A stretch of 64,000 nt of DNA, taken from contig NZ_CP025249.1 in assembly GCF_009930875.1 (NCBI RefSeq), forward strand, positions 2,790,001 to 2,854,000, given 5' to 3'. Below are positions 12,820 to 54,685 of the stretch, in pieces (within the stretch, counting starts at the first letter, position 1; each line of letters starts with the position of its first letter). A program made the translations under genes and the position numbers. Below the pieces are notes generated by a model, which did no database searches, had not been told where the DNA came from, and was given only the letters and a program-made list of their open reading frames with translations. This DNA comes from Actinomyces sp. 432. GTDB lineage: Bacteria > Actinomycetota > Actinomycetes > Actinomycetales > Actinomycetaceae.

Positions 12820-12856
12820 CTCCAGTGTGCAACGAGGCCCTCGTTGCACACTGGAG
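12820..12856. repeat. Near-perfect 18-bp palindrome with 1-base centre
   Basis: The left arm starts CTCCAGTGTGCAACGAGG (12820-12837). Its exact reverse complement occupies 12839-12856. The right arm is also the left terminal repeat of the 120-bp element at 12838, and a further half-site CTCCAGTGTGCA lies at 12939. It would form a strong cruciform or hairpin. Confidence 0.85.
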
Positions 12857-12957
12857 CGTCATCACCAATCTCCAGCCCAATCGCCATTTCCGCGTGATTT
12901 CAACGAAAAGACACGATCGGCCGACTTTGTCCTGACAGCTCCAGTGTGCAGCCGCAC
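12838..12957 (+). repeat. 120-bp palindrome-ended element, copy 1
   Basis: Placed by its core CCGCGTGATTTCAACG, whose TGA falls at positions 58-60 as in the other copies. The outer 20-bp blocks pair through TGCACACTGGAGC on the left and GCTCCAGTGTGCA on the right. The arms are unlike those of the copies at 35181 and 54566, yet complementary to each other. It sits between the toxin-antitoxin pair and the MrfA-like helicase gene. Confidence 0.7.
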
Positions 12958-13150
12958 CGGCTCGACCCGGGCCGACCCTTCCCCGCACGAAACCTGCGTC
13001 GCTCGGGACGGGCCCCACCCGGCGCCGGCCCCGCCCGGAACCTACACAACCCCAACGGCTCCACTCGGAACCGCCCCGCTCTCTCCGCCTCACCCCCGCC
13101 CGACCACCCGGCTATCAGTTCTCGTCAGGCCCCTGCGGCACACTTGCCCC

Positions 13151-15799
13151 ATGAGCACCCAGCCGCACTCGCCCGCGCGCAACCTCACCGACCTGCTCGA
13201 AGGCATCGGCGCGCGCGACAGCCGGCTGATCCACCTGCAGCGCACCCCGGCCCGCCCCGGCCGCCACGGCGAGTGGCCCGCCTGGGCGGACCCCGACCTG
13301 CTCGCCGCCTACGCCCGCCTGGGCGTGGACCGCCCCTGGACGCATCAGGTTGCCGCCGCCGACTCCGTTCACGGCGGCCACCACACCGTGCTCGCCACCG
13401 GCACCGGCTCGGGCAAGTCCCTGGCCGCCTGGCTGCCCGCACTCTCGGAGGTCCTGGCCGCCCAGCGCGCAGACACCGATAGCCACATTTCCGCCTACGG
13501 GCGCCGCCCCACCGCCCTGTACCTGTCCCCCACCAAAGCACTCGCTGCCGACCAGGCCGCCGCCCTGGGCCACCTGATCACCGAGTTGGAGTCGGTTCAG
13601 CGCGAGGCGGGCGTGCCGGGCGGCTCACTGCGCACGGTGCACGCCGCCACCTGCGACGGCGACACGCCGCTGCCCGAGCGCGACTGGGCCCGCGCCCACG
13701 CCGACGTCGTCCTCACCAACCCCGACTTCCTGCACTTCTCGCTCCTGCCCGGCCACGAGCGCTGGAACCGCCTGCTGCGCTCGCTGCGCTACGTGGTGGT
13801 CGACGAGTGCCACGCCTACCGCGGCATTCTCGGCGCCCACGTGGCCCTGGTACTGCGTCGGCTGCTGCGGCTGGTGCGCCGCCTGCGCCCGCACGGCCCC
13901 GAGCCCGTGGTGCTGTGCGCGTCGGCGACGGCGGCCGAGCCGGCAGTCACGGCGGCCCGCCTGATCGGGGCGGAGCCCGAGGCCATCACCGCCATCACCG
14001 ACGACGCCGCCCCCACCGGTGAGCACACCCTCGCCCTGTGGCAGCCGGCCCTATTGGATCCCTGGGCGGCCTGGGAGAACTCGGTGGCGGCCCTGGCGCA
14101 GGCGAGTGACTTCCCCGCCGCCGACCCTCGCCTGAACCACCCGGGCGATGTGACCGCATCTTCGGTGGAAGACGACCCCTCCTCGGCGCAGACGCCGACC
14201 AGCCAGGCAGACTCGCCGCACCCACCGGCGCCATCCCCCGCCTCCCGGCCCGCCACGCCCGTCGGCCCGGACACGGCCGACCCGACGGAGGACCCGGCCG
14301 CCCGCCGCAGCGCCGTCGTAGAGGCGGCCGAGCTGCTGGTGGACCTGCTCAGCGTGGGCGCCCGGGCGCTGGTGTTCGTCCGCTCGCGCCGCAGCGCGGA
14401 GATCGTGGCCGAGCGCGCTCGGCACACGCTCGGCCTGTCCCAGCCGGAGCTGGCGGGCACGGTCGCCGCCTACCGGGGCGGCTACCTGCCCGAGGAGCGG
14501 CGCGCCCTGGAGCAGGACCTGCGCCACGGCCGCCTGCGGGCCCTGGCCACCACCAATGCCCTCGAGCTGGGCATCGACGTCACCGGCCTGGACGCCGTGA
14601 TCATCGCCGGCTGGCCGGGAACCCGGGTGAGCCTGTGGCAGCAGGCGGGCCGGGCCGGGCGGGCCGGCAGCCGCGGGGTGGCGGTGCTGATCGCCTCCGA
14701 CAATCCGCTGGACGCCTACCTGGTCCACCACCCGGAGGACGTGTTCGCCGCCCCGGAGGCCACTGTCTTCGACCCCGCCAACCCCTACGTGCTGGCCCCG
14801 CACCTGTGCGCGGCGGCCTCGGAGTCGCCGCTGCGCACCGACGACCTGCCCCTGTTCGGCCTGCCCGACGAGTCCCTACTGACGGAGCTCGCCGCCCGCG
14901 GGGCGCTGCGACGCCGCCCAGCCGGCTGGTTCTGGAACACGAGCCTGCCGGGCCGGGCACAGGACCTGACCTCCTTGCGCGGGGACGGTCCGGCGGACGT
15001 GCCCGTGGTGGAGGAGGCGACCGGCGCCGTCGTCGGCACCGTGTCCGGGGCGTCCGCGGACTCCACCGTCCACCCCGGGGCGGTCTACATCCACCAGGGC
15101 CGCACCTACCTGGTGGAGGAGCTGACCGAGGAGGCGGCCGTCGTCACCCGCCGGACGGCGGTCGGCTACCGCACCCGGGCGCGCGAGCAGAGCTCGGTGC
15201 GCATCGTCGCCGAGCGGGAGCGGCAGGAGTGGGCCGACGGCGTGGTGTGGGCCTTCGGCTCGGTGGAGGTCACCAGCCAGGTGGTCGGTTACAACAAGCT
15301 CGCGCTGCCGGGTATGGAGGTGGTCTCTCAGCATCCGCTGTCCATGCCCGAGCATGTGCTGCCGACGGCGTCGGCGTGGTGGACGGTACCGGTGGAGCTC
15401 ACCGCCCGCGCGGGCTTGAAGGCGGATGAGCTGCCGGGCGCCCTGCACGCCGCCGAGCACGCCATGATCGGCATGCTGCCACTGCTGGCCACCTGCGACC
15501 GCTGGGACATTGGCGGACTGTCGACGGCGCTGCACCCGCAGACGCTCGCGCCCACGGTGTTCGTGCACGACGCCCATGCCGGTGGTGCCGGCTTCGCCGA
15601 ACGGGGTTTCAGGGCGGGGCGCGCCTGGCTGGAGGCGACGCTTGCGGTGGTTTCCGAGTGCGCGTGCACCGCCGGCTGCCCCAGCTGTGTGCAGTCGCCC
15701 AAGTGCGGCAACAACAACGAGCCGCTGGACAAGGCCGGCGCAATCGCGCTGCTGCACCTGCTGCTGGATGCCATCCCCGACGACGTCGCGGCCGCGTAA
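13151..15799 (+). CDS. DEAD/DEAH-box DNA repair helicase with C-terminal DUF1998 zinc region (MrfA/Rv3649-like)
   Basis: An 882-residue superfamily 2 helicase from ATG 13151; the open frame upstream is not used because it crosses repeats. Walker A ATGTGSGKS is near residue 82, the DECH box near 216, and motif VI QQAGRAGRAGS near 500. The C-terminus bears the cysteine cluster CACTAGCPSCVQSPKCG near 838. This arrangement is that of MrfA/YprA, which repairs mitomycin-type damage. A proline-rich insert of about 45 residues (near 345-390) separates the two RecA folds. It lies beside pilus genes, as in mycobacteria. Confidence 0.9.
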   Translation: MSTQPHSPARNLTDLLEGIGARDSRLIHLQRTPARPGRHGEWPAWADPDLLAAYARLGVDRPWTHQVAAADSVHGGHHTVLATGTGSGKSLAAWLPALSEVLAAQRADTDSHISAYGRRPTALYLSPTKALAADQAAALGHLITELESVQREAGVPGGSLRTVHAATCDGDTPLPERDWARAHADVVLTNPDFLHFSLLPGHERWNRLLRSLRYVVVDECHAYRGILGAHVALVLRRLLRLVRRLRPHGPEPVVLCASATAAEPAVTAARLIGAEPEAITAITDDAAPTGEHTLALWQPALLDPWAAWENSVAALAQASDFPAADPRLNHPGDVTASSVEDDPSSAQTPTSQADSPHPPAPSPASRPATPVGPDTADPTEDPAARRSAVVEAAELLVDLLSVGARALVFVRSRRSAEIVAERARHTLGLSQPELAGTVAAYRGGYLPEERRALEQDLRHGRLRALATTNALELGIDVTGLDAVIIAGWPGTRVSLWQQAGRAGRAGSRGVAVLIASDNPLDAYLVHHPEDVFAAPEATVFDPANPYVLAPHLCAAASESPLRTDDLPLFGLPDESLLTELAARGALRRRPAGWFWNTSLPGRAQDLTSLRGDGPADVPVVEEATGAVVGTVSGASADSTVHPGAVYIHQGRTYLVEELTEEAAVVTRRTAVGYRTRAREQSSVRIVAERERQEWADGVVWAFGSVEVTSQVVGYNKLALPGMEVVSQHPLSMPEHVLPTASAWWTVPVELTARAGLKADELPGALHAAEHAMIGMLPLLATCDRWDIGGLSTALHPQTLAPTVFVHDAHAGGAGFAERGFRAGRAWLEATLAVVSECACTAGCPSCVQSPKCGNNNEPLDKAGAIALLHLLLDAIPDDVAAA

Positions 15800-15969
15800 T
15801 TCCGTCGGGGCTGTTCGCACGGTGGCGGTCATGCCGCCCCCGGGTTGTGTGCCCGCAAACACCACCGCCATGACGGCGGCGTAGAGCGCCGGTGACATTG
15901 GCCCGCCCACCACGACCGGCGCCCCGCCCGCGACCGGCGCCCCGTGCCCGGTGCGGCGTTAGGCCATGG

Positions 15970-16728
15970 TCAGGCCACAGCCAGCAGCCAGGCGAGCCAG
16001 CCGCCCGCGGCCAGGTAGGGCCCGAAGGCGATGGTGTCTTTCAACCCGGTTCGGCCTGTGATCACAAGCCCAATGGCCGACAGTCCGGCGAGTACGAAGC
16101 TCAGCATTAAGCCATTGACCACGTGCTGCACGCCGGTGTAACCCAGCCACAGGCCCAGCAGGGCGCATAGTTTGACATCCCCGAGCCCTAAACGGGATGC
16201 GCGGATGAGCCACACGACCAGGGCCACGGCTCCCACTACAAGCGCGCACAGTACTGCACGGCGCGCCTGCCAGCCTTCCGCTGCGGGTGCACCCAGGGCC
16301 GCACTGCCGAGCGCGAGCGCAGGCATGCTCGCCAGGAGCCACAGCGCTGCCAGGCCCAGCAGCCGGTCGGGCAGCCGGTGGCAGACGGCGTCGACACTGC
16401 CGGCCACGCCGAGCAGGGCCACCACCGGGATGGTGAGGGCCGTATCGACCACCGCCCCGTGGCCAAGTCCCCAAACCAGGGTCACCGTGCACAGGATCGT
16501 TGCGAGCGCACCCTGTGGGAGTGGGTCAAGCAGTCGCCGGAAGCGTATGCGCACAGTGGCGGTGGCGGCGTCTGCGGAGCCCTCCTCGTCCTGGTTCTCC
16601 ACGGCCCGCTCCAGGCCGTCCACGTAGGCCCGCGCAAAACCGGAGGCGGGCCAGGCGGCTACACCGACGGAGGCCACGGCGGTCAGGCAGGCCGCAACCA
16701 CTGGCAATACGGCAGCAGCATTCACCAT
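15970..16728 (-). CDS. Type IV prepilin peptidase (A24 family, TadV-like)
   Basis: A 252-residue multi-pass membrane aspartic protease that processes pilin leaders. The two catalytic aspartates are seen in GSVDAVCHRLPDR and LGLGDVKLCALLG. The C-terminal FGPYLAAGGW segment is also characteristic. It lacks the cysteine-rich methylase domain of long PilD enzymes, so it is the short form. It lies downstream of the Flp/Tad-like pilin and TadE genes on the same strand, which are its likely substrates, with about 260 bases between. Confidence 0.85.
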   Translation of the reverse strand: MVNAAAVLPVVAACLTAVASVGVAAWPASGFARAYVDGLERAVENQDEEGSADAATATVRIRFRRLLDPLPQGALATILCTVTLVWGLGHGAVVDTALTIPVVALLGVAGSVDAVCHRLPDRLLGLAALWLLASMPALALGSAALGAPAAEGWQARRAVLCALVVGAVALVVWLIRASRLGLGDVKLCALLGLWLGYTGVQHVVNGLMLSFVLAGLSAIGLVITGRTGLKDTIAFGPYLAAGGWLAWLLAVA

Positions 16729-16990
16729 GTCATCCTCTCATCGCTTCTCCCGTCCATCCCTCCTACCGCGGCACCCGGTGCTGGCCCGTTCCACCCCGGT
16801 GCTCGACGTCTCAGGGGGAATAACGGGGCCGGGTGCGGTGGTAGCCGCGTCATGCCGATGTAGTGCCTCGTGGCTTCCTGATCGGGCCGCGGCTGCCCCG
16901 GTACAGCTGATCGGGCCGCGGCCGCCCCGGTACAGCGGACCGGGGCGGCCGGGCGAGGGGTTCCCGCCGGCGTCGTCTCCGGCGCGTCAC

Positions 16991-17422
16991 TCACAGCGGG
17001 TTAACCGGTCCAGCGCGGGCGGCGGCACCGGCACGGCGCGGAATCCCGAGTACTCGGGTGGGCACAGTGACCATGACCGTGACGTCCTCGCCGTCAATCT
17101 CGCATGTGCCCAGTTCTGCGCCGTTGGCCTGGGCCACCCGTTGGGCGGTGGCGCAGGGGTCGGCGGGGGCGAGCACCGAGCTCAGCGCCGTCGCCCCGGC
17201 AAGTGCCGCCAGGTCGGCCGCCGAGCGGGCCCGCCCGGCGGCCGACTGGGCCTGAATCAGTCCGGCGGCGCCTAGGGCCAGGCACAGGGCGACGGCGATG
17301 ATGCCCAGCACCATGACTGTGCCGGAACCCCGCTCGCGGCCCGCCGGTGCTGCGGCACGGCCCGTGCCGCACGCCCGTGTGCCATTGCCCGGGGTGAGGA
17401 ACGGACGCATGGCCCGCCTCAT
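16991..17422 (-). CDS. Rv3654c/TadE-like pilus-associated protein
   Basis: A 143-residue protein with an N-terminal Arg-rich stretch, then RERGSGTVMVLGIIAVAL, a single membrane helix preceded by the Gly-Ser-Gly typical of Rv3654c-type TadE/TadG relatives. The region after the helix (AAGRARSAADLAALAGA) is the conserved family motif. The start overlaps the preceding TadE stop by 4 bases. It probably assembles with the Flp pilus; whether it is also cytosolic is unknown. Confidence 0.8.
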   Translation of the reverse strand: MRRAMRPFLTPGNGTRACGTGRAAAPAGRERGSGTVMVLGIIAVALCLALGAAGLIQAQSAAGRARSAADLAALAGATALSSVLAPADPCATAQRVAQANGAELGTCEIDGEDVTVMVTVPTRVLGIPRRAGAAARAGPVNPL

Positions 17423-17925
17423 GGCACACCCGCCTGCGCAGGGGCGGGCTCGGTGTAGGCGCAGGCGCGCGAGCGGGCGGTGAGTCCCAGTCCGCCCAGC
17501 GGCCCTGGGACCCGGCGGCTTGCTGTCACACAGGTGAGTTCACCGGTTTCAACGCTGACCGTTACCGGGCCGCCCGCCCGCTGGGCGGCGCCGACGACGT
17601 CGCCTGAACCGATCGCGGCCTGACGGGCGGCCACGCGGGCGGCGTCGGTGACCCGCAGCTGGGTGAGGCCGGCACTGATGGTGGCCAGAACCAGCAGCAG
17701 GACCAGTGCGACCGCGGGCATGGTGACGGCGAGTTCGGCCGTCACCATGCCCGCCTCGTGCCGCCCGTGCGGGCTGCGGGACTGCCGCCCGCCACGGCCA
17801 TGCGCAGCCTCCGGGTCAGAACGGCCGCCCTGGCTGCTGGGTGGTCGGCCCGGGGAGGATGGGACGGCGCTGTGAACTAGGCGGCTCGCGGGCGCGTTCG
17901 ACCACGGGTTCGGTGGTGTCCACAT
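17419..17925 (-). CDS. TadE family minor pilin
   Basis: A 168-residue protein. After a basic leader, the sequence EAGMVTAELAVTMPAVAL starts a hydrophobic pseudopilin helix with the conserved Glu. A DAARVAARQAAIG segment and a cysteine pair follow. TadE proteins are minor pilins processed by TadV. It lies 7 bases after the DUF4244 pilin stop and overlaps the next gene by 4 bases. The start could be further in (MVTAEL), but the upstream ATG fits the operon spacing. Confidence 0.85.
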   Translation of the reverse strand: MWTPPNPWSNAPASRLVHSAVPSSPGRPPSSQGGRSDPEAAHGRGGRQSRSPHGRHEAGMVTAELAVTMPAVALVLLLVLATISAGLTQLRVTDAARVAARQAAIGSGDVVGAAQRAGGPVTVSVETGELTCVTASRRVPGPLGGLGLTARSRACAYTEPAPAQAGVP

Positions 17926-17932
17926 GTCCGCC

Positions 17933-18175
17933 TCAGCCCACCGAGAGCGCGGACTCGATGACGCCCCGCAGGATGCCGGACAGGCTCCCGGACCGCATGA
18001 TGGCCAGCAGCAGGCCGGCGAATGCCGCAGCCGCGAGGGTGCCGATCGCGTACTCGGCGGTGGCCATGCCGGCCTCGCCGTCCGGGTCGGGCGCTCCGTC
18101 CGGCCCGCGCAGGAAGGGCGGGTTACCGTGGGCGAGGGCCCAGGCGTTGTGCAGCGTCAGCAGGGTGTGCTTCAT
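17933..18175 (-). CDS. DUF4244 Flp-type pilin
   Basis: A small 80-residue protein from ATG 18175 with a strong AAGGAGGAG ribosome site. The pilin-like EAGMATAEYAIGTLAAAAFA has the Glu and Tyr of Flp prepilins, followed by the membrane helix that makes the fibre core. It is the first gene of the pilus run DUF4244-TadE-Rv3654c-like. The secretion ATPase and platform genes (tadA, tadB, tadC) that usually precede it are absent here. Confidence 0.85.
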   Translation of the reverse strand: MKHTLLTLHNAWALAHGNPPFLRGPDGAPDPDGEAGMATAEYAIGTLAAAAFAGLLLAIMRSGSLSGILRGVIESALSVG

Positions 18176-18342
18176 GGTCTCCTCCTTGAAGAGTCGGGGG
18201 ATGTGGCCGGCGTTGGCCGTATCCCGCGGGTGGCTTGCCCGCGTATCCAGCGTCGGGTAACCGCCCCGCCCGCGCATCTGTGCCCTTCGAGCCCTGTGGA
18301 TTGGGGGTGCGCGAACCGCCCCTGTGGACGCCGGTGCCTCTG

Positions 18343-18480
18343 ATGCCACAGCAGGACACCTCGGTGTACTACAAGAATTGCAGCGAGGCCAGGGAGGCGG
18401 GTGCCGCTCCGATCCATTCCGGCGAACCGGGCTACCGCAGCGCGCTAGACCGCGACAATGACGGAATTGCCTGCGAGTAG
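18343..18480 (+). CDS. Small excalibur-domain protein or fragment
   Basis: About 45 codons containing VYYKNCSEAREAG and the calcium-binding DRDNDGIACE ending, the full excalibur motif usually found at the C-terminus of secreted proteins. No signal peptide or partner domain is present in frame (a longer frame begins at 18235), so this may be the surviving end of a larger surface protein. It stops 9 bases before the following lipoprotein start. Confidence 0.6.
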   Translation: MPQQDTSVYYKNCSEAREAGAAPIHSGEPGYRSALDRDNDGIACE

Positions 18481-18489
18481 ACTGGAGTA

Positions 18490-19050
18490 GTGTCACGCTT
18501 CGCTTACATGCCGACCCGCCGTCGTCTGCTGCAGGGCCTGCCCGTTGTCCTGAGTGCCCCGGCACTGGCGGCCTGCGCCCCACGGACCGGCGGTGCGGCG
18601 GCGTCGTCGGCAACCGGCCGTGAGGTGTCGGCCCCCGCGGACGCCTCCATCAGCAACCCGTCCGCCGCCTCGGAGGCCACCATGTCCCCCATCCCCATCC
18701 ATATCAGCCTCGGCAATGCCTTCGAAGGCACCGTCATGGAGGCGACTCTCGATGACAATGCCGCCACCCGCTCCCTGCTCGCCCAGCTGCCCCTGGAGGT
18801 CAGCTTCTCCGACTACGGCGGCCAGGAGCTGACCGCCTCCCTGCCGCAGGACCTGGACACCACGGGCATGAGCGCCGGCGCCCCACAGCCAGGTGATATC
18901 GGCTGGTACGAGCCCGGCAAGGTGCTCGTCCTGTACTACGCGGCCGTCGGCTCCTGGCCGGGCCTGTACGTCATTGGGCACACCGACTACGACGTCGTCC
19001 TCCTCGCCAGGCAGGCCGACATGCCGGCTTCGATCACCCGGGCGCAGTAA
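18490..19050 (+). CDS. Lipoprotein with cyclophilin-like domain
   Basis: A 186-residue exported protein. The twin-arginine-like TRRRLLQGLP leads to a lipobox ALAAC. The mature C-terminal part reads IHISLGNAFEGTVMEA, TRSLLAQLPLEVSFSDYG and GDIGWYEPGKVLVLYY, matching the cyclophilin-like fold family of small bacterial lipoproteins whose role is undefined. A GGAG lies close to GTG 18490; ATG 18508 is the alternative start. Confidence 0.75.
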   Translation: MSRFAYMPTRRRLLQGLPVVLSAPALAACAPRTGGAAASSATGREVSAPADASISNPSAASEATMSPIPIHISLGNAFEGTVMEATLDDNAATRSLLAQLPLEVSFSDYGGQELTASLPQDLDTTGMSAGAPQPGDIGWYEPGKVLVLYYAAVGSWPGLYVIGHTDYDVVLLARQADMPASITRAQ

Positions 19051-19165
19051 CGCACTGGGCAGCAGCCTCCGCCTTGGGCTGAGCACCGAAACTGCGGGGT
19101 GGGCCGCCGGGAGTGAGCGGCCGATATCGGCCCGGTAGGGCGACGGCGGCGCGATACTTGGGGGC

Positions 19166-20506
19166 ATGCTCCAGCCGTACTCCCCCTCCGCCGAGCCGCT
19201 GACGCGTATGGCGGACGGGACCGTCAAGCAGATCAGTCCCTTCACCGGCACCGAGGTGTGGACCGTGCCCGGGCGCGGCAACCGCCCCATCTCCCACCCT
19301 GCGGCTGAGGTGCACGAGCTCACGCAGGCCGAGCGCACGCGCGCCTGCACCTTCTGCCCGGCGCACTACACCGAGACCCCGCCGGAGAAGTCCCGGGTGG
19401 TGGCCTCTCCCGGCGGAGGCTTCGAGCGGATCGACGCCCTGCCCGCCTCCGAGCTGTTCGACACTGTCGCCGAGTTCCGCCGCATCCCGAACCTGTTCGA
19501 GATCCTGTCCTACGACTACTGGCACGCCAACCACGGCTATGAGGTGCCCGACGCCGCCCGGGAGCGGATGGAGGCCTACCTGGCCGATCCTGCGGGGGCC
19601 GCCCACGTGGCCCGGGTGGCCCGCGCCAAGCTGCGCGCCTCCGGACGCAGCCCGGAGGCCTGGGAGAGTATGGACGATGACGCCCGCCGCGAGTACCTGG
19701 CGGCCTTCTTCGCCGGCGGTCACGACGTGATCGTGGCGCGAAGGCATTTCACCGACGACGCCGTCGACTCCTCCGCCCTGGCCGGCTCGGGCACGCTCAC
19801 CCCGGCCGAGCACCGCGCCTATGTCCGCCTGTCCGTGCAGGCCGCCCACGACCTTTACCAGGCCAACCGCTGGGTGCGGTATGTGGCGGTGTTCCAGAAT
19901 TGGCTGCGCCCGGCCGGGGCCTCCTTCGATCACCTGCACAAGCAGCTGGTCGCGATTGACGAGCGGGGCGTGTCCTCGGAGCTGGAGCTGCAGCGGGTGC
20001 GCGCCAACCCGAACCTGTACAACGAGATGGGCGTGGACTACGCCGCCTACCGGGGGCTGCTGGTGGCGTCCAACGAGCACGCCGTCGCATTCGCGGGCTT
20101 CGGGCACCGCTACCCCACGCTGGAGGTGTATTCGACGTCGGCCACCTGTGAGCCGTGGCTGATGAGCCGGGACGAGGTGGATGCCGTCTCCGACCTGCTG
20201 CATGCACTGCACGCCGCTACGGGGGCGGATGTGCCCAGCAACGAGGAGTGGCACCACAAGCCGCTCGACGTCGACCAGCCGATGCCCTGGCACATCACGC
20301 TGAAGTGGCGGGTGTCCACCCTGGCGGGCTTTGAGGGCGGCACCAAGATCTACCTCAACACGATCGACCCGTGGACGCTGCGGGACCGGGTGGTGGCGCG
20401 CTTGGAGGACCTGCGGGCGGACCGGCTGATCGCGCCCATGGCGGTGGGCGAGGAGTGCCCGACTACGCCGAACCGGCTGCTGTACAACCCGGTGTTGGGG
20501 CGGTGA
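19166..20506 (+). CDS. GalT-like/DUF4921 nucleotidyltransferase-family protein
   Basis: A 446-residue protein related to galactose-1-phosphate uridylyltransferase. It has an N-terminal Cys cluster (CTFCPAHYTETPP), a histidine triad-like FDHLHKQLVAI, and a C-terminal WHITLKWRVS region. The spacing differs from classical GalT, and it fits the actinobacterial DUF4921 group. No galactose genes are near, so the natural substrate is uncertain. Confidence 0.75.
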   Translation: MLQPYSPSAEPLTRMADGTVKQISPFTGTEVWTVPGRGNRPISHPAAEVHELTQAERTRACTFCPAHYTETPPEKSRVVASPGGGFERIDALPASELFDTVAEFRRIPNLFEILSYDYWHANHGYEVPDAARERMEAYLADPAGAAHVARVARAKLRASGRSPEAWESMDDDARREYLAAFFAGGHDVIVARRHFTDDAVDSSALAGSGTLTPAEHRAYVRLSVQAAHDLYQANRWVRYVAVFQNWLRPAGASFDHLHKQLVAIDERGVSSELELQRVRANPNLYNEMGVDYAAYRGLLVASNEHAVAFAGFGHRYPTLEVYSTSATCEPWLMSRDEVDAVSDLLHALHAATGADVPSNEEWHHKPLDVDQPMPWHITLKWRVSTLAGFEGGTKIYLNTIDPWTLRDRVVARLEDLRADRLIAPMAVGEECPTTPNRLLYNPVLGR

Positions 20507-20644
20507 CTGGGTGACTGGCTGCCCTCCTTGGTAGCAGCCGAGGCAGACAGCACACGCCGTGTGACCTGAAGCACTCGCACTCGCATTAACAAAACGGTAG
20601 GGTAACGGGAGTCTCGTTTCTTGAACCCTGCTGGGAGGCCACGC

Positions 20645-20980: not shown

Positions 20981-21044
20981 CGCGCAGGTTTCCACCTGCC
21001 ATTCGCTTCCCCAGCCCGCATCGCCTGCTTGAGGAGACAAGACT

Positions 21045-35180: not shown

Positions 35181-35300
35181 TGTCAAAATTGATGACAAAC
35201 GGCTCGCGCGACCGCGCGCACCAGCGCGGTGCCCGCATGATTTCGCCATTTTCAAGACCGTCAAGAACGTCGGCGCCCCCGTTTGTCATCATTTTTGACA
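35181..35300 (+). repeat. 120-bp palindrome-ended element, copy 2
   Basis: The left arm TGTCAAAATTGATGACAAAC is complementary to the right arm GTTTGTCATCATTTTTGACA with one mismatch. The core CCGCATGATTTCGCCATTTT has its TGA at positions 58-60. It overlaps the 3-prime end of the AbiEi-like gene, whose stop is at 35261. Confidence 0.85.
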
Positions 35301-36169
35301 GCCACGTGCGGGCGGCCGAGTAGGTCATCGCATGCGGCCAACAGGCTCCGGACCTCCGCGCCCACCTTCCCGAGGTGGACGTCCTTGCCGGTGAAACGAG
35401 CAACTCGATACCCCTGTCGGACCAGTTCCCGATCACGGGTGCGATCCTTAGCGAACTGAAAGTCGTCCTCGTGGTAGGTGTAGCCGTCCAGCTCCATAAC
35501 CAGGCGGCCGCCAACCAGCAGGTCCACCTCTCCCACACGCGGAATGACCACCCCGTCCTCGAAGGGGATCCCGGCGTCGTGCAACTGCAAACGGGCCAGA
35601 GTTTCTAGCGGGGAGCGCGCCCGCGGACTGGCCAGCGCCAGCCGCCGTAACGCCTGCCGAGACCCCGGGCCCCGCAGCAGCGCCGCAATCGCCTCGACAC
35701 TGGTATGTCCCCGGTGAAGGGCGGCGTCGCAGGCCATAAGTGGCGCTTCACGGTCGGGATCGCAGCGCAGGTAGCGCGCCAGCATGAGCGGCGCCGACGC
35801 CACCGGGAACCGAGTCAGGGGAGGCGGCTCAAGGGAGCCTTCAGCATGCAGCACCTCGCCTTTGAGCGAAGGCACTGTTCTGCCGCGAGGAACCGCCAGA
35901 TGCACCGGCGTCCACAGCCGCGGGCATGGGTACCCATAGTGCCTGGCGGCGTGCATACAGGTAATCACCCCGCCGTGGATGCGCGCCAGCACCAGGTCCC
36001 AGCCCACGCCGGGCAAACTCACCACCCCATGGGGGTGCGCAATCAGCTCACGTGCCTCGACCAGCCTCGCGACGTGACGCCGCTCCGTCCGATCCGGGTG
36101 CAAGTCCCGTAGCCGAACGGCGCCATGGCAAGCCCGTACCCGCACCAGAATGTCGTCATCCTGTCTCAT
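35261..36169 (-). CDS. AbiEi-type/DUF559 endonuclease-fold protein
   Basis: A 302-residue protein of the actinobacterial group that joins an AbiEi-like wHTH region (DDILVRVRACHGAVRLRDL, ARELIAHPHGVVSLPG) to a C-terminal VSR/DUF559 nuclease-like fold. The latter shows EVDLLVGGRLVMELDGYTYH and DRTRDRELVRQGYRVARF. Such genes are common, often with no toxin partner, and roles in defence or repair are suspected. Start ATG 36169. Its last 14 codons run into the 120-bp element, which may have replaced the native end. Confidence 0.75.
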   Translation of the reverse strand: MRQDDDILVRVRACHGAVRLRDLHPDRTERRHVARLVEARELIAHPHGVVSLPGVGWDLVLARIHGGVITCMHAARHYGYPCPRLWTPVHLAVPRGRTVPSLKGEVLHAEGSLEPPPLTRFPVASAPLMLARYLRCDPDREAPLMACDAALHRGHTSVEAIAALLRGPGSRQALRRLALASPRARSPLETLARLQLHDAGIPFEDGVVIPRVGEVDLLVGGRLVMELDGYTYHEDDFQFAKDRTRDRELVRQGYRVARFTGKDVHLGKVGAEVRSLLAACDDLLGRPHVAVKNDDKRGRRRS

Positions 36170-36291: not shown

Positions 36292-36411
36292 TGTCAAAAA
36301 TGATGACAAACGCTGCGGGCACACGCCCGCGGCAACTCCGTATCCGCGTGATTCCACCGTTTTCAAGGACGACGCCGACGGCGACCAGCCCGTTTGTCAT
36401 CAATTCTGACA
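36292..36411 (+). repeat. 120-bp palindrome-ended element, copy 3
   Basis: Arms TGTCAAAAATGATGACAAAC and GTTTGTCATCAATTCTGACA (18 of 20 paired). The core CCGCGTGATTCCACCGTTTT is at the same offset. It faces the same way as copy 2, and the two bracket the AbiEi-like gene. It also lies beyond the 3-prime end of pckG. Confidence 0.85.
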
Positions 36412-36492
36412 CCCGCCCCAGACGACGTTCCCACGCCACAAACGACGGGTCCCCGGCCCAGTGGACCGGGGACCCGACTAAGCGCTCAGCGC

Positions 36493-47193: not shown

Positions 47194-47255
47194 CCTGCCG
47201 ACGCCACCGGCCCGGCGCCGACATCAAGCACGCCCCGCCTCGCCAGGCGGTGTGC

Positions 47256-47483: not shown

Positions 47484-47653
47484 GGGACTCCCCTTCAACT
47501 CGTGCATCCCGTTGTTCTCCGCGGAAGCCGGCGGCCCCGGCACCGCGTGGGTGCCGGGGCCGCCGCCAATGTCACAGCGCGTTCAGACGCTCTCCGCACG
47601 CACGGCTGCCCGGTGAGGCAAGGCCACCGCCGGGCACGCCGTCGTCGGGACGA

Positions 47654-48703
47654 TCAGCGCTTGGCGGAGCCGACGGAGCCGAGGCGCTCGCAGGCCTCGA
47701 CCACGCGGGCGGCCATGCCCTCCTCGGCAGCCTTGCCCCAGACGCGCGGGTCGTAGGTCTTCTTGTTGCCGACCTCGCCGTCGATCTTGAGCACGCCGTC
47801 GTAGTTCTTCAGCATGTGGTCGACGACCGGGCGGGTGAAGGCGTACTGGGTGTCGGTGTCCACGTTCATCTTGATGACGCCGTTGCGCACCGCGGTGGCG
47901 ATCTCCTCGTCGGTGGAGCCGGAGCCGCCGTGCATGACCAGGTCGAACGGCGAGTCCTTCACGCCCACCTTGGTGGACAGGCGGTCGCCCAGGCGGGCGG
48001 CGACGTCCTTCTGGATGTCGCCGAGGATCTCCGGGCGCAGCTTGACGTGGCCGGGCTTGTAGGAGCCGTGCACGTTGCCGAAGGTCAGGGCGGTGATGTA
48101 GCGGCCGTTCTCACCCAGGCCGAGGGCCTCGATGGCGCGCCAGGCGTCATCGGCCGTGGTGTAGAGGTTGGCGTTCTCGTCACCGGAGATGCCGTCCTCC
48201 TCGCCGCCGACGGCGCCGATCTCGATCTCCAGGACCGTGTTGGCGGCCTTCGCGCGCGCCAGCATGTCCACGGCGATCTCAATGTTGTCATCCAGGGACT
48301 CGGCCGAGCCGTCCCACATGTGGGAGTTGAACATCGGCAGCTCCCCGCGCTTGACCTGCTCGGCCTCCATCTCCAGCAGCGGGAGGATCCAGGGCTCGAG
48401 CATCTTCTTGGGGCAGTGGTCGGTGTGCAGACCGATCGTCACCGGGTAGAGGTCACCAACAGCGCGGGCGTAGGCCGCGAAGGCAACAGAGCCCTTGACG
48501 CGGTCGAGCCGGGAGGAGCCGGACCAGTAGGCGGCGCCGCCGTTGGAGATCTGGACGATTCCGTCGGACTCGGCGTCGGCGAAACCCTTGAGCGCCGCAG
48601 ACAGGGTCTGCGAGGAAGTGACGTTGATCGCGGGGATGGCGTACTTGCCGGCCTTGGCGCGGTCAAGCATGTCGGCGTAGGACTCCGGGGTTGCAATGGC
48701 CAC
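47654..48703 (-). CDS. fbaA: Class II fructose-bisphosphate aldolase
   Basis: A 349-residue glycolytic/gluconeogenic zinc aldolase. Zinc-binding LHTDHCPKK, the glycine-rich MHGGSGSTDEEI, and KMNVDTDTQYAFTRP give a clear assignment. Full length, MAIATPESYADML start with a good AGGAGGCACC site. Confidence 0.97.
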   Translation of the reverse strand: MAIATPESYADMLDRAKAGKYAIPAINVTSSQTLSAALKGFADAESDGIVQISNGGAAYWSGSSRLDRVKGSVAFAAYARAVGDLYPVTIGLHTDHCPKKMLEPWILPLLEMEAEQVKRGELPMFNSHMWDGSAESLDDNIEIAVDMLARAKAANTVLEIEIGAVGGEEDGISGDENANLYTTADDAWRAIEALGLGENGRYITALTFGNVHGSYKPGHVKLRPEILGDIQKDVAARLGDRLSTKVGVKDSPFDLVMHGGSGSTDEEIATAVRNGVIKMNVDTDTQYAFTRPVVDHMLKNYDGVLKIDGEVGNKKTYDPRVWGKAAEEGMAARVVEACERLGSVGSAKR

Positions 48704-48945
48704 TGGGTGCCTCCTGAGGAAAGTGAATAGTCAGTGGTGCACCGCTGATTCTGTCACGGATTTGCGCGTCGGTGAACCGGATCATGGTCCCGGTTGGTTC
48801 CGAGCCGAGGTTTCACCGTCGGCGATGACCTGGATCACCCTGCCTAGAGCGGTGCCACAATTGAGGTGCAGCTGGTTGGGTGCAAGGACGCCCAGCCGCG
48901 CGACTCTCGGAACCTCCGAGGCCGCAACCACTGGAGGTGGTTGAC

Positions 48946-49383
48946 ATGGCAGCATCAGCATTCGACCCGTTCCGCGACCTGGACCGCTGGCTGAGTGGCG
49001 GCATGGTACGCACGCCCGCATCCGTCGGTATGCCGCTCGACCTATACCGCGAGGGCGAGTCCTTCGTTGCCCGCATCGACTTGCCCGGCGTGGACCCCGC
49101 GACGATCGACGTCGACGTCGAGGACCGCACCCTGACCGTGCGCGCCGAGCGCCCGGCCACCGACGCCAAGGACGTGCAGTGGCTCGCCCACGAGCGCCCG
49201 AGCGGCACCTTCGCCCGCCAGCTCACGCTCGGCCACGGGCTGGCACTGGACCGCATCTCCGCCCAGTACACCGACGGCGTGCTGACCCTGACCATCCCGG
49301 TGGCCGAGGAGGCCAAGCCCCGCAAGATCGAGGTCACCCACGCCCCGGCCAACCACCCGGTCATCGAGGCCGAGCAGAGCTGA
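48946..49383 (+). CDS. hsp20: Hsp20/alpha-crystallin small heat shock protein
   Basis: A 145-residue ATP-independent chaperone. FDPFRDLDRWLSG leads to the crystallin domain (MPLDLYREGESFVARIDLPG to YTDGVLTLTIPVAEE, with the family G-V-L motif) and a KPRKIEV tail. GGAGG site before ATG 48946. No HspR/HAIR box was seen upstream. Confidence 0.92.
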   Translation: MAASAFDPFRDLDRWLSGGMVRTPASVGMPLDLYREGESFVARIDLPGVDPATIDVDVEDRTLTVRAERPATDAKDVQWLAHERPSGTFARQLTLGHGLALDRISAQYTDGVLTLTIPVAEEAKPRKIEVTHAPANHPVIEAEQS

Positions 49384-49474
49384 CCGCAGCGCCGGGGCGG
49401 CCCGCCGTCGTCCCGCCCAGCGCTCGTCGCAACCCGGCCACGGCCGCTTGTTCACCGCCGGGCCCGTTCTCGAC

Positions 49475-50230
49475 TCAGTCGGGGGCGGGCCCGGCGTGCT
49501 GCAGCACCCAGGTGTGCATGGCGACGGCGGCCGCGGCGGCCACGTTGATGGAGCGGGTGGAGCCGTACTGGCCGATCCGCAGCACCCGGGAGCAGCGCGC
49601 CAACAGTGCCGGGCTGATGCCCTCCCCCTCGCTGCCGAACACCATCAGGCAGCGCTCGGGCAGTACGGCCTCCTCCAATAGCTCCGCCCGCGGCCCGTTG
49701 TCGATGCCGACGACTTCGTAGCCGGCTTCGGCGGCCCACTCCAGCAGCGCGTCCGGCTCGGGGTGGTGGCGCACATCCAGGTAGCGGTTGGTGACCATGG
49801 CGCCGCGCTTGTTCCAGCGGCGCCGCCCAATGATGTGCACGGCAGCCACGTTGAAGGCGTTGGCGGTACGCACGATCGACCCGATGTTCAGGTCCTGGGC
49901 GACGTTCTCCACGGCCACGTGCAGCGGGTGGGCGCGGTCGGCCAGGTCGGCGCGGATCGCCTCGATTGTCCAGTAGCGGTAGCGGTCGACGACGTTGCGG
50001 CGGTCGCCGTCGGCCAGCAGCGCCCGGTCGTAGCGGGGGTCGTCGGGCCAGTCGTCCCGCCCACCGGGCCACGGCCCGACCCCGACCTCGCGCGGCGCAC
50101 CCTCCTCTGTCCGCGCATCGGGCTCGAGCGGCCCGGACGGGTCGGCGGTGTCGCGGTCGTCTGGGATGTCCGGATCAGCGCCGCCGACGTCACCCGCACA
50201 CCGTTCACCTCGGTATCCCAACATCATCAT
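49475..50230 (-). CDS. SpoU/TrmH family RNA methyltransferase
   Basis: A 251-residue 2-prime-O methyltransferase of the SPOUT fold. The motifs NVAQDLNIGSIVRTANAF, LMVFGSEGEGISPAL and YGSTRSINVAAAAAVAMH are the three conserved blocks. An unusual acidic, Arg/Pro-rich N-terminus of about 70 residues precedes them. The start at the first of three ATG codons is a choice. Confidence 0.88.
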   Translation of the reverse strand: MMMLGYRGERCAGDVGGADPDIPDDRDTADPSGPLEPDARTEEGAPREVGVGPWPGGRDDWPDDPRYDRALLADGDRRNVVDRYRYWTIEAIRADLADRAHPLHVAVENVAQDLNIGSIVRTANAFNVAAVHIIGRRRWNKRGAMVTNRYLDVRHHPEPDALLEWAAEAGYEVVGIDNGPRAELLEEAVLPERCLMVFGSEGEGISPALLARCSRVLRIGQYGSTRSINVAAAAAVAMHTWVLQHAGPAPD

Positions 50231-50342
50231 CTGTCCCCTGCCAGTACGCGACATACGACCACATCCACGATCGCACCTGCGGTAGCTTAGTGACCGTCCT
50301 ACCGACACGGCTTCAACATGACGACGTCGTCCGAGGAGTCCC

Positions 50343-51929
50343 ATGGCCTTCCCCGACATCACCCGGGAACTGATCGACCGCATCGTCACGCCTCCAGACA
50401 AACTGATCTTCCTCACCGGTTCGGGAATCTCATACGAGGCCGGCTACCCCACTTGGGATGACTTCGTCATCAACCTGCTGGTGGGCTCGGGCGCACTGCC
50501 GGATCGAGACTCCGCGCGCGGATACCTCGCCGCCGCCGGCAACAGACAAGTCATCGCCGAAGGCGCCCGCGCAGCATGCCATGCGACGGCAGTCAAGCAG
50601 GGCGTCGACCCTGACGACGCTTGGCGATCACTGGTCGCACGCGCGCTGCACCCCGCCAACACCCCCGATGACGCCATCGCACCTCCAACCACCTTGCATT
50701 ACATTCTCGCTAGGCACGCGGCCGCTCACGGGCTTCCGATCCTGACCACCAATTTCGATCTGCTGCACGAAGGAGCCGCAGCGGACTACAACAGATCAGA
50801 CGTCTTTGTTCTAGACGATTTCCAACCGAGCGAATCTTTCATCAGCGACAATAACGGAAACGACAGGTATCTCCCTACGGTATTTCACCTGCACGGTTAT
50901 GTTGATGACACAATGTCATGGGAGGGTGGAACTCTCACAGGATTCACATCTGTCAACCCCATAGTAACCCAGTCCGACTACAATAAAGTATTGCACGACA
51001 AGAGCAGTTGGCAACTCGAGTTGCTGAATGCAATCAGAACATCCGGATTCAGCCTTTTCATAGTCGGACACTCACTGACGGACCACGATCTACAGGCATG
51101 GTTCGAAGCGATACGAAACTCCGCATCTAGGTCATGCAACAGCGACGAGTCAGCATCTCCCACTGAGAGCGTCCCTCTGGGCTACCTGGTGATCGCGAAG
51201 GAGAGCTTAGGCGGGCTACAGGATCTGGGGGACGCCGATTTCGCGGATTACCGTCGACTTCTCGAAAAGCAGTGGGAACAACTCGGAATCACGGTGCTTA
51301 TCACGGAACACTTTTCTGACGCAACGACGCTAATCGAGGAGTACCTGTATCGCTATGGCGCCGGTTCCACTTCCCGCAGCGACAACCAGTCACCGCAAGA
51401 ACGCGTTTCTCACATCTTCAACAGCGTTGTCAGCGGCAACCGTCTCGAGACTACATCCCGGGCGTTCGTCAAATGTGCCACGCTAAACCTGAAGGACGAC
51501 CGGCTTGCACGGTCAGACGTGTCAGTATGGCTCGCCGACGGCTCCCATCAACTGCACAGGATCGGCAAGCAAGGACACGTCTTCCTGATTCCGGAAGTCG
51601 TCAAGACGATAAGCACTCGACCAGGCAGTATGTGGGTAGCAGCACAGGCCCTACATTCTGAAACGCAGCAAGTGGAGACGAAAGACATAGAGCACTGGGA
51701 CGCAATTCTTGGACAGCGCGTGACAATCTCCCAGCCGAACAAACCACCAACCGTATGCGGATCCGTCACGATCGCAGTCCAACTCGCAGATGACGCTGAC
51801 ACCGGTTCGAAAAACGCCCAGGATCTCGCTGATACCATAGTCGAGGACCACGCCCTTCATGATTACCTTGACAAGCTCGTCAAAGACGTAGCCGATGTTC
51901 TTGAACGCCAGCTCGTGCCGCTCGCCTAG
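50343..51929 (+). CDS. SIR2-domain NADase-like defence protein
   Basis: A 528-residue protein with an N-terminal sirtuin-like fold: FLTGSGISYEAGYPTW (NAD-binding loop), LTTNFDLLHE, catalytic HLHGYVDD, and GHSLTDHDLQAWF. In anti-phage systems this SIR2 type destroys NAD. The C-terminal 200 residues show no motif I recognise and may sense the trigger. GAGGAG site before ATG 50343. Lower GC and rarer codons than the neighbours suggest transfer. A small gene follows. Confidence 0.82.
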   Translation: MAFPDITRELIDRIVTPPDKLIFLTGSGISYEAGYPTWDDFVINLLVGSGALPDRDSARGYLAAAGNRQVIAEGARAACHATAVKQGVDPDDAWRSLVARALHPANTPDDAIAPPTTLHYILARHAAAHGLPILTTNFDLLHEGAAADYNRSDVFVLDDFQPSESFISDNNGNDRYLPTVFHLHGYVDDTMSWEGGTLTGFTSVNPIVTQSDYNKVLHDKSSWQLELLNAIRTSGFSLFIVGHSLTDHDLQAWFEAIRNSASRSCNSDESASPTESVPLGYLVIAKESLGGLQDLGDADFADYRRLLEKQWEQLGITVLITEHFSDATTLIEEYLYRYGAGSTSRSDNQSPQERVSHIFNSVVSGNRLETTSRAFVKCATLNLKDDRLARSDVSVWLADGSHQLHRIGKQGHVFLIPEVVKTISTRPGSMWVAAQALHSETQQVETKDIEHWDAILGQRVTISQPNKPPTVCGSVTIAVQLADDADTGSKNAQDLADTIVEDHALHDYLDKLVKDVADVLERQLVPLA

Positions 51930-51974
51930 CCGCCGCGAGTCATGTATCCTGAGTTGGTCTCTTAAGGAGCAGAC

Positions 51975-52169
51975 ATGACGATGATGATGCAGTCTCTACC
52001 GCAGTCACCGAATCAGCCCGCACAGGAAGAGCGCGTTGTCGCCGTCCCGGTCACTGGCGACGGAACTCGGTTCCGTCTGGTGACCGTGCGTACCGGCCGT
52101 CGCAACATTCGCACGCGATCCAAGCCGCAGCGCACCGAACCGCAGTCAAAGACGGCAAGAAGCGCCTGA
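51975..52169 (+). CDS. Small protein downstream of the SIR2 gene, possibly frameshifted
   Basis: 64 residues (MTMMMQSLPQSPNQPAQEER) with AAGGAG upstream. In the next frame the sequence continues HSHAIQAAAHRTAVKDGKKR to a stop near 52231, which one added base would join into about 86 residues. No family recognised. It could be a partner of the SIR2 protein, but the link rests only on adjacency. Confidence 0.45.
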   Translation: MTMMMQSLPQSPNQPAQEERVVAVPVTGDGTRFRLVTVRTGRRNIRTRSKPQRTEPQSKTARSA

Positions 52170-52305
52170 CCGTCGCCGATCCGAAGCTGACGGACGCTGC
52201 AGATACAGTCCTAACGCAGTCCTCGTCCTAGCGCTGGCCTCCCGGCCCCCGCTCACACGTGGAGCCTGCGGGGCGGTCCCGGGCGGCCCGGACCGGTCCG
52301 CGGTG

Positions 52306-52887
52306 TCAGTCAAGTCCCAGGTCCGCGAGTCCGAGGGCAGCGTGGTAGGGCAGGCCGGCGGCCTCGATCCGCTCGCGCGCCCCGGTGGCGCGGTCCACGA
52401 TCACGGCGACGGCGAGCACGTTCGCACCCGCCTCGCGCAGCGCGGCGACAGCCTCCAGCGGGGAGCCGCCGGTGGTGGAGGTGTCCTCCAGGACTACCAC
52501 GTTGCGGCCGGCGACGTCGGGGCCCTCCACGCGGCGCTTCATGCCGTGGTCCTTGGCGGCCTTGCGCACCACGAAGGCGTCCAGGTCCAGCCCGCGGGAG
52601 GCGGCCGCGTGCAGCATGGCGGTGGCAACCGGGTCGGCGCCCATGGTGAGCCCGCCGACGGCGTCGACGTCCTCGGTGCTCAGCCCGGCCTCCTCCAGCA
52701 TGTCCAGCATGACGTGGCCGATGAGGGGGGCGGCCTCGTGGTGCAGGGTGGCGCGGCGCATGTCCACGTAGAAGTCGGACTCCAACCCGGAGGCGAGGGT
52801 GACTTTTCCGCGGACGACGGCGAGGTCGCGGATCAGTTCGGCCAGGCGGGCGCGGTGGGAGTCGTTGGCGATCACGTCGGTACTCAC
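52306..52887 (-). CDS. pyrE: Orotate phosphoribosyltransferase
   Basis: A 193-residue pyrimidine-synthesis enzyme from GTG 52887. The PRPP-binding VVVLEDTSTTGGSPLEAV and FVVRKAAKDHG are diagnostic. The longer open frame upstream has Pro/Thr-rich junk and is rejected as start. Confidence 0.95.
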   Translation of the reverse strand: MSTDVIANDSHRARLAELIRDLAVVRGKVTLASGLESDFYVDMRRATLHHEAAPLIGHVMLDMLEEAGLSTEDVDAVGGLTMGADPVATAMLHAAASRGLDLDAFVVRKAAKDHGMKRRVEGPDVAGRNVVVLEDTSTTGGSPLEAVAALREAGANVLAVAVIVDRATGARERIEAAGLPYHAALGLADLGLD

Positions 52888-53023
52888 GCCGCCAAGGCTA
52901 ACCCGGCGGTGGCTGCTGGACGATCTCAAACCGGCCCTTGGCGTTTGAGGTTGTGATGGCGAGGAGGGGATGGGTGTGTGGATGGTGGGATGCCGATGGT
53001 TGTGGAGGATTCGCGTCTGCGCA

Positions 53024-53038
53024 CCGCTTGGTGACGGG
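53024..53038. repeat. 15-bp target duplication, left copy
   Basis: CCGCTTGGTGACGGG abuts the left end of the IS481-type element. An identical copy follows the right end at 54538-54552. Confidence 0.95.
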
Positions 53039-54537
53039 TGTGATGTCTCAGGACATCGGTGACAGTTCTGCCTCAGGACATCGGTGACACTTGGTGTGTC
53101 AGGACATCGGTGACACTTGTGGTTGTTTTCGGGGTCTGCCGCGGTTGGAGCGTGTGCTGGGGTCGTGGTGGCTGACGTACCTGGTGGCTGGGTCGGGCCA
53201 GGGGTAACTGGTGATGACCTCGCCGTCGGTGTCGACGAACCGGATAGCGGTGGCGTCCCAGCAGGCGGTGACCTGTTGGCCGGCACGTTTCCTGGAGACC
53301 AGGAACGAGGTGTTAGCGATCGTGACGGTGCCGTTGGATGCGATCGTCTTGGCCCGCTCGCCCTGCTCGCCGAGCCGGGACCGGCTGCGGCGCCCCTTGT
53401 CGGCCAGGACTTCGTAGTCGTCCAGGGCCTGCTGTGCGACCGCGGCGCTCGGGTCCGGTGGGCCTCCAGGGATCACCGGCTCATCACGCGCGGGGTCGGG
53501 GCGCGGTGGAGCGGCGACGGGGGTGGCCTGCCATGCCTGGGCCGGGGTGATGCGCCCGGGCAGGCCCTGGTGGGGGCGCTCGTTGTTGTACAGGTGATCG
53601 AAGGCGTCGACCTGGGCCTGCAGCTCCTTGAGATCTTTGGCTAAGGGCTGGCTGTCCAGGTAGCGGAACAGGGTTTGGTGGAAGCGCTCATTCTTACCCT
53701 GAGTGGTTGGCTTGTACGGCTTGCCGGTGATCGCATCAACCCCAAGAGTCTTGATGTGCTCTACCAGCGCGCCCTGCATGCCCCGCCTGGTGGGGTTCAC
53801 AGCAGCACCGTTGTCGGTCAATAGCCGCTGGGGCACCCCGTAGCGGGCGACGGCCCGGTCGAAAACCGCGATAGCAGCATCGCTGGTTCTGCGACCAGGC
53901 GACCAGCCACGCCACCGCCAGGCGGGAGTGATCGTCGATGAGCTGGAATACGACGCACTTGCGTCCTCCGGCGAGGACGTACTCGGTGGCGCCCATCTGC
54001 CAGCAGGCGTTCGGGGCGGGGTAGACGAACCGCCTCCACGCAGACCTAGGCCGCTTGTGCGGCTCGCGTCTTGCCACGCCCCGTTGGCGGAAGATGCGCG
54101 CCAGAGCTGCCGGCGAGGGCGCGTCCAGTCCCATCGCCACCATCTTGTCATGAACCGATACCGGCCCGTGGTCCAGGCCGGAGGACGCCATCGAGGCGCG
54201 CACCGCCACCGCCTGGTCCTTGATGTCCTGGCCTAAGGCGGCTGGGCTAGACCTCGGACGCCTGGACAGCGGCTCGAGGACAGCGGCCTGCCCCAGCTCG
54301 ACGGCCCTGCGTCGCAGCTTGTAGAAGGTGTTGCGGCGGATGGCGTGCTCGGCGCAAAACGAGGTCACCGCACCACGCGGGGCGTCGTCGGGCCACTGAG
54401 CAATCGCAAGTCTGATACGCGGGTCAACAGGATCATTACTCACCGGCCCATCACAGCCGAACTGTCACCACCAATAACCCCCGAACTGTCACCGATGTCC
54501 TGAGGCAGAACTGTCACCGATGTCCTGAGACATAACA
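53039..54537 (-). mobile_element. IS481-family insertion sequence, 1499 bp, complete ends
   Basis: The terminal inverted repeats start TGTGATGTCTCAGG on the left and TGTTATGTCTCAGG on the right, and agree over about 50 bases, beginning TGT as usual for this family. A CAGGACATCGGTGACA motif recurs three times inside the left end and twice in the right, likely transposase sites. The 15-bp identical target duplication shows true insertion. The single transposase gene is damaged. Confidence 0.93.
53099..54443 (-). pseudogene. IS481-family transposase, frameshifted and missing a catalytic Asp
   Basis: An N-terminal helix-turn-helix (IRRNTFYKLRRRAVELG) and a DDE core are present. The expected WQxDATE reads CWQMGATEYVL, so the first catalytic Asp is Gly. 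The second Asp is in LLTDNGAA, and the Glu in KNERFHQTL. A frameshift near 53890-53900 requires removal of one base (AACCAGC to AACAGC), giving SQNSDAAIAVFDRAV. Both changes would stop activity. Confidence 0.88.
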
Positions 54538-54552
54538 CCGCTTGGTGACGGG
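54538..54552. repeat. 15-bp target duplication, right copy
   Basis: Identical to 53024-53038. The insertion lies only 13 bp from the 120-bp element at 54566. Confidence 0.95.
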
Positions 54553-54565
54553 CGGAGGCCGGAAA

Positions 54566-54685
54566 TGTCCATATTCGGCATTAACGCCGTCGATGCGAAT
54601 GCAGCCCAATGCGGCATCCGCATGATTTCAACGTTTTGTTCGCGGCCGCCGACACGGCTGGCACCGTTCGTGCCGAATCTGGACA
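54566..54685 (+). repeat. 120-bp palindrome-ended element, copy 4
   Basis: Arms TGTCCATATTCGGCATTAAC and GTTCGTGCCGAATCTGGACA pair at most positions, yet differ from copies 2 and 3 while keeping TGTC at the end and AAC at the inner edge. The core CCGCATGATTTCAACGTTTT is at the same offset. It lies between the insertion sequence and the end of the tlpA-like gene. Confidence 0.85.

Follow-up and report, generated by a model that had tools for sequence, protein, structure and literature searches.

In the BIME-1/RIB-type elements of E. coli, a central IHF site lies between inverted REP (repetitive extragenic palindromic) sequences, and the repeat treated here resembles them in having inverted ends that flank a central, putatively protein-bound site at fixed length. 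The repeat was met in a 64,000-nucleotide stretch of the chromosome of Actinomyces sp. 432 (the window hereafter; bases 2,790,001–2,854,000 of a single-contig genome of 3,141,809 bases, G000, also called the own genome), in which an earlier inspection of the letters alone, here called the sequence-only reading, had pointed out four copies of a 120-bp element with a fixed core and complementary ends. This 120-bp family is not due to chance and is larger than was then reported; it is genus-specific, several Actinomyces species carrying dozens of copies in each genome, and it probably works like a repeat with matched protein-bound ends.

REPINs, pairs of REP sequences, owe their movement to RAYT (Bertels and Rainey 2011, PMC3116915), and the Correia repeat enclosed elements of Neisseria, mostly 104–108 or 153–157 bp long, occur in over 100 copies (PMC2649163). 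The Actinomyces repeat shares with REPINs two inverted conserved ends, a less conserved spacer of fixed length, an extragenic location and several end types; it differs from them in its invariant central core, in its arms of 21 bp (vs the 16-mers of REPINs), in its unpaired spacers, whereas compensatory spacer changes are reported for REPINs (PMC3116915), and in having no RAYT-type Y1 transposase in the 29 genomes searched, for which reason membership of the REPINs was rejected. As in the Correia elements, inverted ends of more than one type surround a characteristic core, but the genus and the end words are different (ends and core were compared by reading with the words given in PMC2649163), the core is precisely central, and no target duplication of 3–10 bp is found, in contrast to that reported for Correia elements (PMC2649163). 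A comparison with miniature inverted-repeat transposable elements (MITEs) finds terminal inverted repeats and no target duplication of 3–10 bp. Since defining features of each class were looked for and not found, the family belongs neither to the REPINs nor to the Correia elements nor to the standard MITEs. The sequence-only reading knew of no named element of this kind, and no title or abstract describing the repeat was found in the open-licence literature; in a word search, Actinomyces is not named in the main text of the RepRanger paper (PMC12306157) or of a MITE review (PMC10969869).

Anatomy, copy number and distribution

The element is composed of a 21-bp arm, 31 bp, a 16-bp core, 31 bp and a second 21-bp arm, the centres of arm and core being about 52 bp apart, near five helical turns. 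The terminal inverted repeats have the form TGTC...GACA, and the boundary reaches about 2 bases further (A at -2 in 65%, T at +2 in 75%). The four copies first noticed are all present, each 120 bp long with the core at 53–68 and TGA at 58–60:

35181..35300, + strand: element copy 1, type A arms (35181–35201 and 35280–35300), core 35233–35248; model score 98.1 bits
36292..36411, + strand: element copy 2, type A arms (36292–36312 and 36391–36411), core 36344–36359; 103 bits
54566..54685, + strand: element copy 3, type B arms TGTCCATATTCGGCATTAACG, core 54618–54633; 102 bits
12838..12957, + strand: divergent copy, core 12890–12905, arms TTGCACACTGGAGC at 12844–12857 and 12938–12951, symmetric about the core and in the same register

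The complementary ends described for every copy hold for 35181, 36292 and 54566 (21 bp, with 19–21 of 21 positions paired, G-T allowed); the 12838 copy differs, its arms of 13–14 bp being placed 6 bp inside the 120-bp register and unrelated in sequence to the other arms, and it is not reached by the family model (R1, see below) at E <= 1. Its arm word has four matches in the genome at <=1 mismatch, vs one for the reversed control: both arms, a third occurrence beside the left arm, and one half copy near 487,303–487,369. The 12838 copy abuts a palindrome that carries this word. The length of exactly 120 bp is likewise true of most copies and not of all: among 109 copies, 86 have 120 bp, 16 have 121, three have 119, three have 122 and one has 143. 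This set comprises 43 of the 44 matches in the own genome (one lies outside the fetched stretches) and 66 strand-merged matches in relatives, one strand per place being kept (66 of 130 rows); additional copies of 150 and 110 bp exist beyond it. The core is precisely central (52-16-52) in 98 of 129 distinct copies. A variant core, GGCGTCATTYCAACGTT, occurs in elements of A. glycerinitolerans and A. ruminis (L228:2187-2305 and L227), and an element carrying it lies in opposite orientation at the site of the window's 36292 copy.

Pattern searches of the own genome returned, for the core, 17 exact matches and 152 at <=2 mismatches (62 for the reversed pattern) and, at <=3 mismatches, 62 and 18 matches for a first and a second arm pattern, vs none for either control; judged by eye, nearly all the arm matches form inverted pairs about 120 bp apart, a handful at 2–3 mismatches having no partner. 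Model R1, a covariance model built from 24 copies with the arms alone set as paired, was used for whole-genome searches in which the best 125–150 first-look candidates per genome were scored. It gives 44 strand-merged matches in the own genome at E below 1e-3, to which the divergent 12838 copy is to be added, and, at E below 1e-6, 70 and 38 matches in a second and a third complete genome. The search of relatives' genomes that the sequence-only reading had proposed thus returned many further copies: the family is present in 17 of 29 genomes, namely in 17 of 19 from the genus (two, G002 and G016, are without it at E <= 0.01, and four have four matches or fewer) and in none of 10 from other genera of the order. 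In the genome_contigs collection, a gapped core-plus-arm pattern matched 55 stretches, 54 of them from Actinomyces (glycerinitolerans, succiniciruminis, ruminicola, ruminis and massiliensis); the remaining one, from Oscillatoria, gives no model match at E 0.01. Viral contigs searched with one exact pattern and phages searched with one copy as query gave no match, and the plasmids searched gave nothing beyond a gene fragment in A. oris.

Matching of the arms and constraint on length

Within each copy the two arms are matched beyond what decay would leave, as had been claimed. In 24 copies, 88.5% of the cells are paired, vs 78.1% in shuffles (0 of 500 as high), and the covariation score is 0.318, vs 0.167 (0 of 500), falling to 0.03–0.10 when the register is slid; the counts of double changes and of pair types do not clearly exceed the shuffles (see the last section). 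Among 68 copies less than 85% alike, a copy's own arms match at 17.56 of 21 positions, vs 14.89 in shuffles (0 of 2000 as high), and the 28 own-genome copies give 17.68 vs 14.89 (0 of 2000). Over 4278 pairs from 93 copies, the similarities of the two arms are correlated (r 0.625), the correlation between an arm and its adjacent spacer being about 0.2.

The same 4278 pairs bear on the idea that a site-specific recombinase crosses over at the core and so shuffles left and right halves between copies. Mosaic copies do occur: in the clearest, L147_746, the left spacer is that of the orthologue own2120330 (0.93), while the right half is the same as in L117_703 from the same genome, the switch falling inside the core, and L135_2483, L115_4933 and L123_7042 are further mosaics. 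The similarity across the core (r 0.27) is, however, slightly below that within the halves (0.33 and 0.30), so small a difference that switching is not concentrated in the core; as no other shared stretch is as long as the core, recombination of any kind would seem to switch there, and the right flanks of L147_746 differ from those of the donor copy. A crossover role of the core is accordingly regarded as very improbable.

The spacers do not pair (9.44 of 31 positions vs 9.78 shuffled), and among the 60 strongest column couplings in 59 copies the arms are the sole helix-forming series, with no inner helix. A structured RNA with conserved inner helices was dropped from consideration, such helices not being seen; Rfam gives no match at the gathering score in the window. 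The sequence-only reading had taken the covarying arms to imply selection for a folded form. Orthologous copies do not bear this out: when elements at least 0.85 identical are compared (29 orthologous pairs), none of the 39 changed arm pairs is a compensatory double change, 25 being single switches between paired and unpaired, 11 single changes via G-T, and three unpaired on both sides. An identity limit of 0.65 admits 49 pairs and brings 36 double changes from paired to paired, in a set that includes sites holding a different family member. Matched ends and spacing are conserved; base-pairing is not visibly the selected property, and a single protein recognising both ends would be a simpler reason for the likeness of the arms, one that would explain the data as well or better.

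The paired arms could also be read as a transcribed element of gene 3' ends, a hairpin that stabilises mRNA or terminates transcription in both directions and that ordinary terminator hairpins could replace. Gene 3' ends are often close to copies (17 of 49 lie within 40 bp, vs 2 of 33 for 5' ends; 41 copies with both called neighbours within 400 bp), convergent neighbour pairs outnumber divergent ones by 27 to 15 (98 copies with both neighbours called), and short hairpins are seen at element-free sites in G012 (3062808), in the own genome (L132) and in G005 (38 bp). The RNA folds of three copies, on both strands, are 3.6–6 standard deviations more stable than shuffles, a stability of the single strand that is due to the inverted repeat. 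A terminator has, on the other hand, no need for a middle of 78 nt fixed in length; the scan for Rho-independent terminators, which covered 35181, 36292 and 54566, gives no match over these copies, the sole match near them being a separate hairpin at 36446–36476; close orthologues show no compensatory arm changes; no inner helix is seen; and the orientation relative to co-directional neighbours is even (28 with, 28 against). A function in transcript ends is considered unlikely.

The orthologous pairs also permit the regions of the element to be compared, with the provisos that they share sequences and are not independent, that, of the 51 pairs between different loci, 29 pass the identity limit of 0.85, and that at a limit of 0.70, 15 further pairs are excluded for more than one gap run. 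In the 29 pairs the differences amount to 3.2% in the arms, 1.1% in the core and 9.0% in the spacers, so that the arms evolve about threefold and the core about eightfold more slowly than the spacers. Indels are found in one element vs 23 sets of 120-bp flank (22 pairs with indels in the flanks only, none in the element only). The flanks are 87% identical in 26 pairs picked by hand from 52, from which most pairs of unequal length were left out. The spacers drift roughly like the flanks; spacer length does not.

Genomic sites, turnover and neighbouring elements

According to a small home-made gene caller, which misses unusual genes, 107 of the 109 copies overlap no called gene, though at least one of these (35181) overlaps a missed gene by 40 bp: its final 40 bp cover the 3' end of a frame of the DUF559 type, whose stop ends at 35261. 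Copy density rises towards the replication origin, which is placed by a dnaA-like motif at the contig start: clusters in the origin-proximal half number 27 of 37 (own genome), 43 of 61 (G005) and 17 of 28 (G040), with Rayleigh p values, uncorrected for gene layout, of 0.005, 0.003 and 0.10, the last being weak.

Both flanks are shared by 52 copy pairs (one of them being two neighbours), and many sites are inherited in several species. Some orthologous sites hold a different member of the family, the elements being 40–55% alike and the flanks 77–95% alike. At the 3062808 site the element is absent from G012 and G040, where no more than 12 bp separate the matching flanks, and the sequence found there in G049 and G005 is unrelated; in the own genome a short sequence resembling a hairpin takes the place of the element at the L132 site; at the 2388978 site the element is present in G049; at the L122 site in G005 the alignment is too poor for a call. 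At the place of the pair 35181/36292, G005 carries a perfect 38-bp hairpin (L224:1329-1366) which starts with TGTCC and ends with GGACA, like the arms. Two identical copies with different flanks occur in A. glycerinitolerans, and one truncated copy in G005.

An ordinary MITE of a DDE transposon, that is, neutral relics with terminal inverted repeats, would account for the TGTC...GACA ends, the intergenic location, the duplicate copies and the truncated one. Against it, no 3–10 bp target duplication is found, a parent transposon is not seen in G000 (with two arm types) or in the stretches of G005 and G014 examined, and orthologous sites keep the length of the element while their flanks gain indels; this origin is considered improbable. 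Insertion into the loops of terminator hairpins was also tried and given up, the flanks not being complementary beyond the first 2–3 bases. Integron-like cassettes had been suggested by a DUF559 gene flanked by elements in two species and by locus A (own 1321527), where the own genome has one element and G012, G014 and G049 have two with intervening sequence; cassette exchange was dropped because the difference at locus A does not run from element to element.

The arm pattern has 23 matches in G005, 34 in G014 and none in G015. Among 17 stretches fetched around paired or unpaired arms, 14 have a model match at E below 1e-6; arms without a normal partner occur in L283, L284 and L289, and one in L288. 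In L284 (2029–3620) and L289, an IS110-family element (DEDD and Transposase_20 domains) lies within the left arm by a few bases; of the two, L284 alone shows the right junction; in L292 the same IS110-family element lies directly beside an element copy, and about 1467 bp are common to the three G005 places. At these places the 120-bp element is the landing place of IS110. Members of IS110 have been reported to use REP repeats as targets (PMC11208160); since the stretches were chosen for their arms, the present finds do not show a preference of the insertion sequence for the element.

Copies 35181 and 36292 have identical orientation and are 991 bp apart. Two further features adjoin copies in the window:

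35261..36169, - strand: gene of the DUF559 endonuclease-like type between copies 1 and 2; its product has 302 aa when counted from the start common to its homologue
12819..12857, no strand assigned: near-perfect palindrome, CCTCCAGTGTGCAACGAGG then CCCTCGTTGCACACTGGAG, which includes the left arm of the divergent 12838 copy

The A. glycerinitolerans homologue of the DUF559 gene (L101:6345-7274) likewise lies between two elements, in the same relative orientation, and these two elements are identical. The palindrome containing CTCCAGYGTGCAACGAGG, which in the window is partly joined to the 12838 copy, is found again elsewhere in the genome (L005 near 1500). Near the 54566 copy, at 53099–54530, there is an integrase-type gene (rve_3 domain; IS481-like by reading), past the end of which the word CTGTCACCGATGTCCTGAG is repeated. 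Another intergenic repeat, of the ACCGGTCTCGG / TAACCGTCGAGACCGGTCGA kind, is found at L223:1109-1241, L292:380-470 and window 54740–54790, with short tandem runs in G005.

Proposed working of the element

Of the three possibilities first raised for the family, a miniature mobile element, a structured RNA and a protein-bound cruciform, a mobile or formerly mobile element with bound proteins fits best, and the cruciform is not borne out. The explanation favoured here, with more confidence than any other though well short of certainty, is that of a new genus-specific intergenic repeat in the style of REPINs and Correia elements, with matched protein-bound ends and a central site, moved by a recombinase. 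The two arms would be inverted sites for one protein, and the several arm types would therefore call for several related proteins; the core may bind a second factor or be a place where the DNA bends, and with the spacing fixed both ends could come together on one face. Copies would have arisen by movement of the whole unit of 120–124 bp, through a recombinase supplied in trans and leaving no target duplication; ends that must match for mobility would stay matched. Most of the present copies would now be vertically inherited, and the length constraint on them suggests that the complex still forms.

Several observations weigh against this proposal. The binding proteins are hypothetical. No Y1 transposase (Y1_Tnp, PF01797; RAYT) is found in any of 29 genomes, whereas 5 of 14 genomes searched as controls give a match; nor is a long transposon with these arms at its ends found in G000 (two arm types) or in the 17 stretches of G005 and G014. 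Target duplications, which the sequence-only reading had suggested looking for, do not go beyond 2 bp: none of the copies with full flanks shares 3–10 bp at its ends, and no offset stands out when offsets of 0–15 and lengths of 4–9 are scanned in 128 copies (at most four copies sharing 4 bases). Matches of 2 bp are in excess (19 vs 8 expected), being mostly AT...AT, which reads as part of the inverted ends. Element-free sites are not clean, their flanks differing beyond the element. In the 24 copies, 12 of 21 arm pairs show double changes, a number that 39 of 500 shuffles also attain; for the number of pair types, 492 of 500 shuffles do so. At the identity limit of 0.65, indels affect 20 of 49 elements vs 43 of 49 flank sets (23 flank-only, none element-only); the conserved length could also be caused by replacement with intact copies, an alternative raised because some orthologous sites hold a different family member.

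A further reading, tentative and clearly less probable than a mobile repeat, is that of a three-point DNA module maintained by the host, in which two matched arm sites, each about five helical turns from a central site, would be held in a genus-specific protein complex; the complex would close a small loop wherever the element lies, in dozens of intergenic positions that become denser near the origin. Were this true, the arms would co-evolve through a protein and not through base pairing, and the family, though descended from a mobile repeat, would serve to organise or insulate the chromosome.

The family combines strict geometry, matched ends and an invariant central motif without the RAYT that moves REPINs; it sets up a concrete search for a recombinase or binding protein in Actinomyces, and its orthologous copies in several species allow a direct test of selection on the length of a repeat.

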